Under the pieces are notes generated by a model. It was not told the origin of the DNA. It made no database searches and worked only from the letters and a program-made list of their open reading frames with translations. Of a stretch of DNA of 64,000 nt, positions 4,351-21,265 are shown in pieces (the stretch's first letter is position 1; every line of letters begins with the position of its first letter). The position numbers and the translations under genes were made by a program. The DNA is taken from NCBI RefSeq assembly GCF_900070365.1, contig NZ_LN850107.1, positions 6,386,001-6,450,000 on the forward strand. Direction: 5' to 3'. This DNA comes from Alloactinosynnema sp. L-07. GTDB lineage: Bacteria; Actinomycetota; Actinomycetes; Mycobacteriales; Pseudonocardiaceae.

Positions 4351-5175
4351 ATGTCGAACCCGCAGCCACCCCACGGCGGCGACCCGCAGCAGCCCTTCAA
4401 CCAGGGCCCTGGCACGCCGCCCGGGGGTCAGCAGCCGCCGCCGTTCGGCCAGCAGCCCCCGCAGGGCCAGCCGTTCGGCCAGCAGCCCCCGCCGGGCCAG
4501 CCGTACCCGGGCCAGCAGCCGCCGCAGGGTCAGCCGTTCCCGGGCCAGCAGCCGCCGCAGGGTCAGCCGTTCCCCGGCCAGCAGCCCCCGCCGTTCGGTC
4601 AGCAGCCGCAGCAGCCGGGCTTTCCCCCGGCGCCCGGCGCCCCGGTGCCGCCCAAGAGCGGCAAGGGCAAGCTGATCAAGATCATCGCGGGTATCGTCAT
4701 CCTGCTGGTGATCGGTGGCGTCGCGTTCTACTTCTACAACACCTCGGCCGCCTCGGCGAACGTCGGTGACTGCATCAAGGTCAAGGACGACAGCGCGAAG
4801 AGCGCCGACGTCGAGAAGATCGACTGTGGCAAGCCGGAGGCCGTCTTCAAGGTCGCCAAGAAGCTCGACAGCAGCAGTGCCACCTGCCCGAGCGACAGCG
4901 ACTACCTGGAGTACGAGCAGTCCTCCGGGCGCGGCTCGAAGTCCGGCTTCTCGCTGTGCCTGATGGTCAACGCCAAGAAGGGCGAGTGCTTCACCGACCT
5001 CAAGGACGCCGACAAGGCCAAGAAGGTCGCCTGCGGCGACGCGAGCGCCAAGTTCGAGGTGCTGGAGATCGTCGAGGGCAAGAGCGAGCCGGAGGCGTGC
5101 ACCGCCGAGGGTGTCGACGACGGCTTCATCTACAACGAGCCCAAGATGGTGATCTGCGGGAAGACCAAGGGATAG
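4351..5175 (+). CDS. LppU-like membrane protein with Pro/Gln-rich cytoplasmic tail, paralogue 2
   Basis: The 274-aa protein begins with about 95 residues of GQQPPxGQPFP-type repeats, low-complexity and probably disordered in the cytoplasm. A transmembrane helix (IIAGIVILLVIGGVAFYFY) and an extracytoplasmic domain like those of its two neighbours follow, with matching landmarks GDCIKV, IDCGKPEAVFKVAKKLD, FSLCLMVNAKKGECF and VICGK. The start ATG at 4351 follows GAGGTGCACG. Similar Pro/Gln tails occur in actinobacterial cell-envelope proteins. It ends 2 bases before paralogue 3, so these two form an operon. Function is unknown. Confidence 0.75.
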   Translation: MSNPQPPHGGDPQQPFNQGPGTPPGGQQPPPFGQQPPQGQPFGQQPPPGQPYPGQQPPQGQPFPGQQPPQGQPFPGQQPPPFGQQPQQPGFPPAPGAPVPPKSGKGKLIKIIAGIVILLVIGGVAFYFYNTSAASANVGDCIKVKDDSAKSADVEKIDCGKPEAVFKVAKKLDSSSATCPSDSDYLEYEQSSGRGSKSGFSLCLMVNAKKGECFTDLKDADKAKKVACGDASAKFEVLEIVEGKSEPEACTAEGVDDGFIYNEPKMVICGKTKG

Positions 5176-17281: not shown

Positions 17282-18676
<1,395 letters not shown>

Positions 18677-18711
18677 CGGCCGACTGGCGCGATAGGAATA
18701 GCATCGGTGGC

Positions 18712-19194
18712 GTGGACGGCGAACTGAGTCATGTGGACGCCAATGGCGCGGCCAGGATGGTCGATGTCTCCGAGAAGGAGGTCACGGCCAGAACGGCTGT
18801 GGCGACTGGGATCGTCCGCACGACCAGAGAGGTCATCGGCTTACTGAGCCGCGACGGCCTGCCCAAAGGTGACGCGCTCGCCACCGCCCGCATCGCCGGG
18901 ATCATGGCCGCCAAGAAGACCCCCGAGTTGGTCCCGCTGTGCCACCCGATCTCGATCTCGGGCGTGCGGCTCGACCTTGATCTCGACGGCTCCGAGGTGC
19001 GGATCACCGCGACCGTGCGCACCAACGACCGCACGGGCGTGGAGATGGAGGCGCTCACCGCGGTGGCGGTCTGCGGCCTGACCCTGCACGACATGATCAA
19101 GGCCGTCGACCCGGCCGCCGTGCTCGACGCCGTCCAGGTGGAACGCAAGGACGGCGGCAAGAGCGGCACGTGGACCCGGAAGGACCACCTGTGA
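18712..19194 (+). CDS. moaC: Cyclic pyranopterin monophosphate synthase (MoaC)
   Basis: The 160-aa MoaC converts the MoaA product into cyclic pyranopterin monophosphate in molybdenum-cofactor synthesis. Family landmarks are MVDVSEKEVTARTAVA, KGDALATARIAGIMAAKKT, the active-site LCHPI, and TGVEMEALTAVAVCGLTLHDMIKA; the catalytic Lys/Asp near the C terminus are in KAVDP. The start is the GTG at 18712. Its TGA stop overlaps the GTG of the first member of a tandem mini-ORF array, and MoaC's last residues HL are echoed at the end of each mini-ORF. Confidence 0.97.
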   Translation: MDGELSHVDANGAARMVDVSEKEVTARTAVATGIVRTTREVIGLLSRDGLPKGDALATARIAGIMAAKKTPELVPLCHPISISGVRLDLDLDGSEVRITATVRTNDRTGVEMEALTAVAVCGLTLHDMIKAVDPAAVLDAVQVERKDGGKSGTWTRKDHL

Positions 19195-19268
19195 CGACTG
19201 AATCGGGTGCGGTATCACGGCGTTTGTCCGGGTCGAGTGGCGGGCAGGCCGAGGGGAGGCACCTGTGA
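19191..19268 (+). CDS. Mini-ORF 1 of the coupled array (25 aa)
   Basis: It starts at the GTG that overlaps moaC's TGA and encodes MTTESGAVSRRLSGSSGGQA followed by EGRHL. It is the most diverged copy at DNA level (GGTGCGGTA versus GGCGCAGTA in later copies, and Arg instead of Ser near the end), so it is probably the ancestral one. The peptide is Ser/Gly-rich with no hydrophobic segment. Confidence 0.4.
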   Translation: MTTESGAVSRRLSGSSGGQAEGRHL

Positions 19269-19342
19269 CCACCGAATCGGGCGCAGTATCACGGCGTTTG
19301 TCCGGGTCGAGTGGCGGGCAGGCCGAGGGGAGCCACCTGTGA
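19265..19342 (+). CDS. Mini-ORF 2 of the coupled array (25 aa)
   Basis: The frame is shifted one base relative to mini-ORF 1 and starts in its stop codon. The peptide differs from copy 1 only at residue 23 (Ser for Arg). The upstream ribosome site is GAGGGGAGG. Confidence 0.4.
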   Translation: MTTESGAVSRRLSGSSGGQAEGSHL

Positions 19343-19416
19343 CCACCGAATCGGGCGCAGTATCACGGCGTTTGTCCGGGTCGAGTGGCGGGCAGGCCGA
19401 GGGGAGCCACCTGTGA
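19339..19416 (+). CDS. Mini-ORF 3 of the coupled array (25 aa)
   Basis: The peptide is identical to that of mini-ORF 2 and is coupled to it by a GTGA overlap, with GAGGGGAGC as ribosome site. Confidence 0.4.
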   Translation: MTTESGAVSRRLSGSSGGQAEGSHL

Positions 19417-19490
19417 CCACCGAATCGGGCGCAGTATCACGGCGTTTGTCCGGGTCGAGTGGCGGGCAGGCCGAGGGGAGCCACCTGTGA
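19413..19490 (+). CDS. Mini-ORF 4 of the coupled array (25 aa)
   Basis: The peptide and ribosome site are identical to copy 3, indicating recent unit duplication or active homogenisation. Confidence 0.4.
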   Translation: MTTESGAVSRRLSGSSGGQAEGSHL

Positions 19491-19564
19491 CCACCGAATC
19501 GGGCGCAGTATCACGGCGTTTGTCCGGGTCGAGTGCCGGCCAGGCCGAGGGGAGCCACCTGTGA
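19487..19564 (+). CDS. Mini-ORF 5 of the coupled array (25 aa)
   Basis: This last copy has Ala at residue 17 (GCC GGC in place of GGC GGG) and ends in the TGA that overlaps the Mog-MoaE start codon, so ribosomes finishing it would be delivered to that gene. Confidence 0.4.
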   Translation: MTTESGAVSRRLSGSSAGQAEGSHL

Positions 19565-20472
19565 CCACCGCGCGAGTCATCACGGCGTCGAACCGCGCCG
19601 CGGACGGCGTCTACGAGGACAAGACCGGCCCGGTCGTCGTGGCCTGGCTGCGGGCCCAGGGCTGCGCCACGCCCGACCCGGTGGTCGTGCGCGACGGCGC
19701 CCCGGTCGAGGCGGCGTTGCGGGCCGCGGTGGCCGACAAGGTCGACGTCGTGGTCACCACGGGCGGCACCGGCATCACCCCGACCGACGGCACCCCCGAG
19801 GCGACGCGGGCCGTGCTGGATTACGAAATCCCCGGCCTGGCCGACGCTATCCGCGCCGCGGGCCTGCCCAAGGTCCCCACCGCCGTGCTGTCGCGCGGCC
19901 TGGCGGGCGTGGCGGGCCGGACCCTGGTGGTGAACCTGCCGGGGTCCTCCGGCGGCGTCCGCGACGGACTCGCGGTGCTGGAGCCAGTGCTCGCCCACGC
20001 CGTCGACCAGCTCAAAGGCGGCGACCACCCCGCCGCCAAGCCCACCCGGGCCCGGGTCCTGCGCGCCGACGTCAGCGAGTCCCCGATCACCGTCGAGGAG
20101 CACGCCGCCCTGGTCGAGGACGACGCGGCGGGCGCGGTGGTCACCTTCGCGGGTGTCGTCCGCGACCACGACCACGGGCGCGGCGTCACGGCGCTGACCT
20201 ACGAGGGCCACCCGACCGCCAAGGACATCGTCGCCGAGGTCGCCACCGAGGTCGCCGCCCGCCACCGGGGCGTGCGTGCCCTGGCGGTGACCCACCGGAT
20301 CGGCGATCTGGCCGTCGGGGACGTCGCCCTGGCCTGCGCGGTGGCCGCCGAGCACCGCAGGGAAGCCTTCACGGCATGTGCGGACTTGGTGGACGAGGTG
20401 AAGGCGCGGCTGCCGATCTGGAAGCACCAGAAGTTCACCGACGGCACCGACGAGTGGGTCAACTGCCCTTAG
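19561..20472 (+). CDS. Fused molybdopterin adenylyltransferase (Mog/MoaB) and molybdopterin synthase large subunit (MoaE)
   Basis: The 303-aa protein joins two Mo-cofactor enzymes. Residues 1-150 are Mog/MoaB (VDVVVTTGGTGITPTDGTPE; GRTLVVNLPGSSGGVRDGL), which adenylylates molybdopterin. From about residue 175 comes MoaE (GAVVTFAGVVRDHDHGRGV; LAVTHRIGDLAVGDVALACA; PIWKHQKFTDGTDEWVNC), which with MoaD converts cPMP to molybdopterin. M. tuberculosis encodes these separately (mog, moaE2). The start is the GTG at 19561 after GAGGGGAGC; longer upstream frames run through the tandem repeat and are artefacts. The 3' end overlaps the convergent methyltransferase gene by 14 bases. Confidence 0.96.
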   Translation: MTTARVITASNRAADGVYEDKTGPVVVAWLRAQGCATPDPVVVRDGAPVEAALRAAVADKVDVVVTTGGTGITPTDGTPEATRAVLDYEIPGLADAIRAAGLPKVPTAVLSRGLAGVAGRTLVVNLPGSSGGVRDGLAVLEPVLAHAVDQLKGGDHPAAKPTRARVLRADVSESPITVEEHAALVEDDAAGAVVTFAGVVRDHDHGRGVTALTYEGHPTAKDIVAEVATEVAARHRGVRALAVTHRIGDLAVGDVALACAVAAEHRREAFTACADLVDEVKARLPIWKHQKFTDGTDEWVNCP

Positions 20473-21265
20473 TAGCGCGGACGATCCAGCACGCACCGTT
20501 GAATCGGACTTCCGCGCCGTGCACGTAAGGGTCGAACGCGGGCCGGACAGTCTCCACGACTCGCTCGCGGGTCGTCTCGTCCACCTCGGGCAGGGCCAGG
20601 CCGAGCGGGCCGAGCCGGGTGAAGTAGCCGACCAGCTCCGACTCCGGTAGGGCGAAGTCCACGTCGAGCGGCTCTAGGTCGACGTCGGCCCAGCCGCTTT
20701 CGGTCAGGATCCCGCGGACCAGGTCCGGGCTCGCCATGCCGAACTGACCTGGGGTGTCCGGTAGGCGGACGGGGAGGGTCAGCAGCGGGGCCGCGGCGCG
20801 TTCGGCGGTCGTCATGAATGGGTTCTCGTCCATCCCTCGCCACACGACCACGCAAAGCCCGCCCCGCGTGGCGCGGCGCAGGTTGGTGAAGGCCCGGACG
20901 GGGTCCGCGAAGAACATGACCCCGAAGCGGGAGATCACCGTGTCGAACGTGCCCGGCTCGAAGTCGTGATCTTGCGCGTCGGCGCGGATGAAGGTGGCCC
21001 GCACACCCGCCAGTTCGGCGCGCTTCTCGGCGGCGGCGATCATCGAGCCGGAGATGTCGACGCCGACGCACGTACCGACCTTGCGCGCCACGGCCACCGT
21101 CGTGCCGCCCGTGCCGCAGCCGACGTCGAGCACGGCGGGTCCGGCGACGGCGTCGACAAGGACGTCTTCCACGGGCTTCAACAGCTTGTCGAGCAGCTCT
21201 TGCGAATCGACCCAGGCGTTGCCCGCGCGGCCGTTCCAGCGCGCCGTCTGGTCTTCGTCGGTCAC
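20459..21265 (-). CDS. Class I SAM-dependent methyltransferase (UbiE/ArsM-like)
   Basis: The 268-aa protein has the SAM-binding motif AVLDVGCGTGGTTVAVA (motif I), an acidic residue after VGVDISGSM, and SRFGVMFFADPVRAFTNLRRA as the post-II region. A second methyltransferase with the same layout occurs at 51279. The GTG at 21265 follows AAGGAGACGATC. It is divergent from a MerR-family gene, with a perfect operator-like palindrome between them, so it is probably the regulator's target. The substrate is unknown. Confidence 0.88.
   Translation of the reverse strand: MTDEDQTARWNGRAGNAWVDSQELLDKLLKPVEDVLVDAVAGPAVLDVGCGTGGTTVAVARKVGTCVGVDISGSMIAAAEKRAELAGVRATFIRADAQDHDFEPGTFDTVISRFGVMFFADPVRAFTNLRRATRGGLCVVVWRGMDENPFMTTAERAAAPLLTLPVRLPDTPGQFGMASPDLVRGILTESGWADVDLEPLDVDFALPESELVGYFTRLGPLGLALPEVDETTRERVVETVRPAFDPYVHGAEVRFNGACWIVRATKGS

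Follow-up and report, generated by a model that had tools for sequence, protein, structure and literature searches.

The genome of Alloactinosynnema sp. L-07 carries, between moaC and a mog-moaE fusion gene, five almost identical short open frames in tandem, each with a start codon that overlaps the stop codon of the frame before it. This raises the question of how such a chain came to lie between the two genes, and whether it is a regulatory device, a source of peptide or an insertion that the locus tolerates. We analyzed it within a window of 64,000 nt (contig NZ_LN850107.1, positions 6,386,001 to 6,450,000), the whole stretch of DNA under study, to which all positions below refer unless stated otherwise. 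Tandem Repeats Finder places the array at 19185-19570, with a period of 74, 5.2 copies and 97% matches, and ranks it as the top-scoring array of the window. The locus is composed as follows.

17282..18676, + strand: malic enzyme, upstream of moaC (Pfam malic / Malic_M)
18712..19194, + strand: moaC, the upstream gene, whose TGA opens the chain (Pfam MoaC, 1.2e-50)
19178..19184, + strand: GGAAGGA, the Shine-Dalgarno sequence of mini-ORF 1, within the moaC tail (position read from sequence)
19191-19264 (unit 1) and 19191..19268 (mini-ORF 1), + strand: VTTESGAVSRRLSGSSGGQAEGRHL
19265-19338 (unit 2) and 19265..19342 (mini-ORF 2), + strand: VTTESGAVSRRLSGSSGGQAEGSHL
19339-19412 (unit 3) and 19339..19416 (mini-ORF 3), + strand: same as mini-ORF 2
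19413-19486 (unit 4) and 19413..19490 (mini-ORF 4), + strand: same as mini-ORF 2
19487-19560 (unit 5) and 19487..19564 (mini-ORF 5), + strand: G17A; its TGA overlaps the GTG of mog-moaE
19547..19554, + strand: Shine-Dalgarno sequence GAGGGGAG now serving mog-moaE (predicted duplex with the anti-Shine-Dalgarno sequence -11.4 kcal/mol; position read from sequence)
19561..20472, + strand: mog-moaE fusion, the downstream coupled gene (Pfam MoCF_biosynth and MoaE)

Every unit consists of GTG, 24 codons and TGA, and the TGA of each mini-ORF sits inside a GTGA that also holds the next start, with the sixth GTGA starting mog-moaE. Read in this way, the six GTGA sites and five mini-ORFs form a chain of 4-nt start/stop overlaps of the xTGA type. 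Units 2-4 are identical; unit 1 carries five differences and unit 5 two (seven positions in total), and the peptides vary solely at residues 17 (G/A) and 23 (R/S). The initial annotation had described five 74-bp units, each with a ribosome-binding site, a GTG overlapping the previous TGA and a near-identical 25-codon frame, with variation limited to residues 17 and 23, and had seen in them a chain joining moaC to the start of Mog-MoaE. The coordinates, the frames and the comparison of the units bear out this description, from the moaC TGA as first link to the last TGA, which overlaps the mog-moaE GTG. The source genome holds one MoaC match.

The Shine-Dalgarno sequence GAGGGGAG precedes by 6 nt the start of each of units 2-5, as well as that of mog-moaE, its further copies beginning at 19251, 19325, 19399 and 19473. 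The predicted duplex amounts to -11.4 kcal/mol for the GAGGGGAG sites, but to -15.1 kcal/mol for unit 2, while unit 1 relies on AAGGA within the moaC tail (-9.0 kcal/mol); the GGAAGGA found there is probably the original mog Shine-Dalgarno sequence. An open mini-ORF alone means little, since 72% of random 24-codon stretches in the sampled genome are open, and the five overlaps of the array are a single amplified event, all from one unit.

We rejected an assembly or chance artefact: the units differ at seven positions and the genome is one contig of 7.4 Mb, which makes a simple assembly stutter unlikely. A survey of 464 kb of the source genome (400 kb sampled plus the window) for repeats with a period of at least 20 and at least 2.5 copies returned 20 rows, in four of which the period is not a multiple of three. 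Three of these have scores of 103-137 and no more than one DTGA each, as against a score of 723 and six DTGA for the array. Two DTGA are also present in locus L141, a weak in-frame array (period 27, 2.6 copies). Elsewhere in the window, at 4447-4591, lies a 33-bp tandem repeat of 4.5 copies whose period is a multiple of three, and which is perhaps a coding repeat.

With this in mind, we turned to the same junction in relatives. Both genes are readable in 28 of the 29 relative loci with a Mog match, and all of these but L027 and L033, hence 26 of 28, have a candidate mog start at -4 relative to the moaC stop. The two nearest relatives (91% identity over the first 150 Mog residues) show a bare GTGA between moaC and mog; the source genome and G010 belong to the same genus. 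For a second set of 80 named loci, which has few genomes in common with the first and contains moaC in 78 cases, the start nearest to -4 is an ATG or GTG at -4 in 47 of the 78, TTG in 1 and CTG in 3, and lies elsewhere in 27. At L017 the Mog match begins 56 nt past the moaC stop, and the frame is open back to an ATG at -4, which amounts to an N-terminal extension of about 18 residues.

The 74-bp unit has no second copy elsewhere in the source genome (next best match E 0.25), is not found as a unit in 389 other genomes of the family, and is absent from 396 other genomes of an order sample that overlaps the family set. Plasmid records gave no match either, and a plasmid origin was dropped on this ground. 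Ten other family genomes show pieces of 24-39 bp only; at each of these places one or more forward frames run open for at least 209 codons, and we took the pieces for chance matches rather than relics of the unit. Apparently, the array is so far private to the source genome among the genomes searched. Since the unit is absent elsewhere and the -4 overlap is common in relatives, the array probably arose within the source lineage, inside a conserved overlap. A scan of 109 relative moaC-mog loci, 106 of them readable, brought up a pair of ATGA-bounded units, 35 and 36 nt long, in Actinomadura sp. KC06 (L092, 2930-3004), the second of which reads in frame into Mog, and in Amycolatopsis taiwanensis (L055) a 74-nt period with a 25-codon mini-ORF that ends in the mog ATGA.

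As to the origin of the unit, its first 33 nt and the first 28 nt of mog-moaE are similar, and both contain, though in different frames, ATCACGGCGT, which in mog falls in the codons of the VITAS motif. Alignment of nt 5-40 of the unit with nt 5-40 of mog from the source genome gives a score of 27, reached by 1 of 4000 random genome segments and by 0 of 245 mechanical DTGA-junction controls, for a stretch that was chosen after looking at the sequences. When the body of the unit is taken whole (nt 11-64) and compared with the 5' end of mog, 6% of controls score as well. The 3' half of the unit matched nothing that we compared it with, and a comparison with the moaC tail gave no support for an origin there. 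We regard the unit as a likely local duplication, seeded, judging from these alignments, by the ribosome-loading region of mog.

Altogether, it appears reasonably probable to us that the array is a locus-born, coupling-preserving tandem repeat that expanded inside the -4 overlap of moaC and mog-moaE, and that it is mainly a tolerated spacer, in the mode of the mycobacterial MIRUs, and not a tuned copy-number device. The unit would have been seeded partly by a copy of the mog 5' end with small indels, and then multiplied through slippage or unequal recombination. It would be tolerated because every unit reproduces the start-stop overlap; 74 is 2 modulo 3, and with periods of this class the end of a mini-ORF can coincide with the start that follows. 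Ribosomes finishing MoaC may re-initiate at each GTGA, aided by the Shine-Dalgarno sequence at every step, and would thereby reach Mog-MoaE, such that coupled synthesis of MoaC and Mog-MoaE could survive 370 nt of added DNA.

The initial annotation had proposed a stop-start relay under selection or tuned by copy number. Its relay part fits both sets of relatives (a start at -4 in 26/28 and 47/78) and the restoration of the overlap, with a Shine-Dalgarno sequence, by each unit; its tuning part is left unsupported, no relative with one to four of these units having been seen. A copy-number-variable tuner, in which the number of relay steps sets the ratio of MoaC to Mog-MoaE, is accordingly an explanation to which we give little credence, even though three identical units suggest a recent amplification and repeat length upstream of M. 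tuberculosis fpg1 has been reported as linked to the expression of that gene (PMC2734929). Furthermore, the last unit provides mog with a predicted Shine-Dalgarno sequence stronger than that of the moaC tail, so that a simple loss per relay step is not evident.

Is the chain translated, and is the peptide of use? The differences between units bear on both points. Six of the seven fall at codon position 3 and five of the seven are synonymous in the mini-ORF frame, whereas none of the seven is synonymous in either of the other two forward frames. The chance of at least six differences in the mini-ORF phase is 0.004-0.007 (0.02 for any of the three phases), that of the synonymous count 0.02-0.03. 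The independence of the seven differences is doubtful, however, because four of them fall within 16 nt of unit 1. We take the third-position bias as a modest sign that the array may be translated; it also suggests that a codon-level feature is kept, beyond the needs of a passive spacer.

It had also been suggested that the peptide itself may matter, and five tandem copies of a functional 25-residue peptide could raise its dose. The position-3 and synonymous counts lend this a small boost, and so does the contrast with a dispersed repeat family treated below, in which 5 of 27 differences fall at position 3 and 0 of 27 are synonymous (Fisher 0.002 and 7.5e-5, respectively). Yet seven differences are few, the unit is absent from the family and order-sample genomes searched, the GC3 of the array is 0.74 versus 0.91-0.95 in the neighbour genes, and codon usage does not rank the mini-ORF frame first among the six. 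A protein search with an array-spanning frame of 59 aa, which contains the peptide, gave no candidate among proteins of about 32-103 aa, the detectable range, to which 25-aa proteins do not belong; nor is the peptide conserved in the dispersed family. We therefore hold a functional peptide to be unlikely.

Regulation by the DNA or RNA of the array, through a promoter, repressor sites or a structured RNA, would have a precedent in the senX3-regX3 region, for which, with its MIRUs, promoter activity has been reported (PMC4213456). At our locus, however, a simple consensus scan of 18600-20600 found neither a sigma-70-like promoter nor a terminator, and the internal promoter that had been considered as a source of Mog-MoaE expression was thus not recovered. 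Rfam gave no match to the array at E <= 1 and the array RNA is less stable than shuffles (z +3.4), which leaves a structured RNA without support. Such a regulatory array is, in our view, very improbable.

The moaC-mog unit of Amycolatopsis taiwanensis, unlike that of the window, is a dispersed repeat. Its 136-base region is matched at E <= 1e-5 in 111 of 386 Pseudonocardiaceae genomes, a count that includes matches over 33-60 bases only, and a sister unit is matched at 1e-4 in 37 of 377 genomes of the order sample, six of them outside the family. A Nocardia farcinica record shows a partial match to the element. A covariance model, R1, finds it at 1e-8 in 35 of 150 relatives, with up to 18 places per genome; among the 17 genomes of the genus of G039, which served as a proxy for mycobacteria, R1 gave 1 match (E 8e-5). 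The loci are the following.

Dispersed-element loci: L055:2871-2995, L152-L178, L180-L182, L197-L209, L225-L228

Units of 69-83 bp, often in tandem, lie at gene junctions and form many DTGA-bounded mini-ORFs of 23-28 codons with a Shine-Dalgarno sequence. Of 32 loci tried, 31 hold the core of the element; the set counts one place twice (L055 and L152), includes some orthologues, and forms 25 clusters by downstream gene. Long flanking frames (at least 60 codons ending at the first DTGA, at least 80 codons from the last) are present in 21 of the 31 core loci, and among the ten downstream genes submitted to Pfam are those for OpcA, an NADH dehydrogenase subunit, a response regulator, homoserine dehydrogenase, carbamoyl-phosphate synthase and transporters. 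The element occupies the moaC-mog junction in Amycolatopsis taiwanensis (L055/L152) and in G360 (L158/L199). In G360, by eye, four cores at 72-nt spacing seemingly prolong the MoaC frame before a final ATGA. At L153, L162, L165, L172, L175, L176 and L201, again by eye, the downstream gene opens with an apparent partial unit (e.g. VNDDGGAG, VSDSGHAV), as if the element had supplied the gene start.

The source genome itself contains one clear copy, at 1319833-1319915 of the genome on the - strand (L182), where the junction reads TTGA, 74 nt, TTGA before the start of opcA, a gene called from the Pfam OpcA match in the orthologue L169; the gene end upstream is presumably that of zwf. G013, G009 and G008 also have a copy there; the 21-base core is the same in all, while the variable parts diverge widely. 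In G013, where the spacing is 73, the next GTGA does not close the mini-ORF, which shows that not every copy in this family is laid out as a relay. A second R1 match in the source genome (5219282, E 1e-4) was discarded, no relay being visible in the sequence there. Phages gave no match to the dispersed unit, and Rfam, run on six loci with the element, returned only two sub-threshold matches, both elsewhere in the loci. In the literature we recognised no description of the element, and three forms of its core sequence were not found.

An alignment of 25 units separates a near-invariant core, GACCGGGTGCGGGTGTCCCGC, from a variable part, and the predicted fold pairs the DTGA start codon with the end of the variable part, which would place a hairpin over the start codon. 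In a comparison for which the fold was derived from the same alignment, 94.8% of cells are paired as against 85.5% in shuffles (40-52% for slid versions), there are 38 double changes as against 10.8, and the covariation score is 0.328 as against 0.155. None of 500 shuffles attained any of these three values. Of the five measures one, the count of pairs that show a double change, is unexceptional, 93 of the 500 shuffles attaining it. All three frames of the core are in use among the copies and no peptide is conserved. The differences between neighbouring units, 27 after deduplication by hand with 10 from L177 alone, fall at position 3 in five cases and are never synonymous. As such, it seems to be DNA or RNA, not peptide, that is kept in this family. 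The core spacings in 27 hand-listed cases are 2 modulo 3 in 14, 0 modulo 3 in 11 and 1 modulo 3 in 2; the last class, which breaks both coupling and frame, is rare (2/27, P 0.002). By their lengths, these classes appear to match what is expected if coupling or frame must survive.

Could the window array be a strongly diverged copy of this dispersed element, inserted at moaC-mog, then decayed and re-amplified? The junction is shared with the copies of Amycolatopsis taiwanensis and G360, the 74-nt period with L055, and the source genome holds its one clear member. In an end-to-end alignment DTGA, the variable part, the CCGGGT-CG.GTG stretch and the Shine-Dalgarno sequence follow one another in the same order; anchored in register with the GTGA sites, the alignment has a global score of 33, which 4% of the shuffles and 4% of the genome segments attain (P about 0.04). 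Unanchored, however, 15-19% of controls score equally (P 0.15-0.19), and 31 real units score at least 72, with a mean of 94. The array is absent among the 23 matches listed by nhmmer with the family profile, and an unfiltered run of covariance model R1, listing 80 rows up to E 10, has no match at 19191-19560. The stem enclosing the start codon scores 8 in the array units, a value reached by 10% of 245 control junctions with a measure that misses 6 of 24 true units; by this measure the window units do not stand above the controls. Descent from the dispersed element is thus, to our mind, rather unlikely.

The two repeats resemble each other in their DTGA-bounded mini-ORFs with Shine-Dalgarno sequences, in unit length and in the moaC-mog site. 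They differ in that the window unit lacks the near-invariant core GACCGGGTGCGGGTGTCCCGC, in that covarying hairpins and a core read in all three frames are features of the dispersed element, and in the third-position bias, which is seen in the window array and not in the dispersed element (Fisher 0.002). The window array works, as far as its layout tells, like the dispersed element and sits where that element sits elsewhere, yet it is not a member by sequence. Going beyond our preferred reading of a locus-born, coupling-preserving spacer, we tentatively suggest a wider picture, which we consider possible but would not yet call probable. Actinobacteria outside Mycobacterium would hold a class of relay repeats in 4-nt overlaps. 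One kind would be dispersed and structured, with covarying hairpins over each start codon (as at zwf-opcA of at least four Actinokineospora genomes), and another born on the spot by junction duplication (the window array, perhaps that of Actinomadura sp. KC06). The window frame would then be under codon-level constraint and its chain truly translated, and it may set the number of ribosomes that reach Mog-MoaE.

Relay repeats may represent a wider way for DNA to sit between translationally coupled genes without uncoupling them. The dispersed family makes this idea testable through its period classes and its use of the core in three frames, with coupling geometry and RNA fold, not peptide, seemingly kept. 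The window array, in turn, is a five-step natural relay for measuring the efficiency of serial re-initiation in a GC-rich actinobacterium. To our knowledge, relay repeats had been known from mycobacteria only, where they serve as typing markers.

As far as the sources cited here describe them, MIRUs are short units with mini-ORFs, placed at xTGA sites by a 4-nt overlap; they occur at 41 places in M. tuberculosis H37Rv and are apparently mobile (PMC12548453, PMC4213456, PMC2734929). The senX3-regX3 junction contains three MIRUs of 77 bp in H37Rv, in a region reported to have promoter activity (PMC4213456), and two of 77 bp plus one of 53 bp in CDC1551 (PMC12548453, PMC4213456, PMC2734929). The window array is alike in that start and stop overlap the neighbouring stop and start by 4 nt, and in having settled at what is, in relatives that lack the repeat, an xTGA overlap (candidate start at -4 in 26 of 28 readable). 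MIRUs, however, are a family dispersed over many loci, whereas the window unit lies at one place in one genome, and the likeness is one of mode and not a comparison of sequences. VNTR3239 (ETR-F) upstream of fpg1, where the dependence of expression on repeat length was measured, likewise fills a junction with direct repeats, which spans 279-358 bp in the M. tuberculosis complex and 1-54 bp in the other mycobacteria listed (PMC2734929). It differs in being a complex of several direct repeats, and a start-stop mini-ORF chain is not among the features reported in the parts of that source on which we draw (PMC2734929). A stop-start relay of this kind, of which the initial annotation knew no description, is thus not without precedent: the mode of the window array is already known from the mycobacterial MIRUs, and the greater share of novelty lies with the dispersed, structured relay element.
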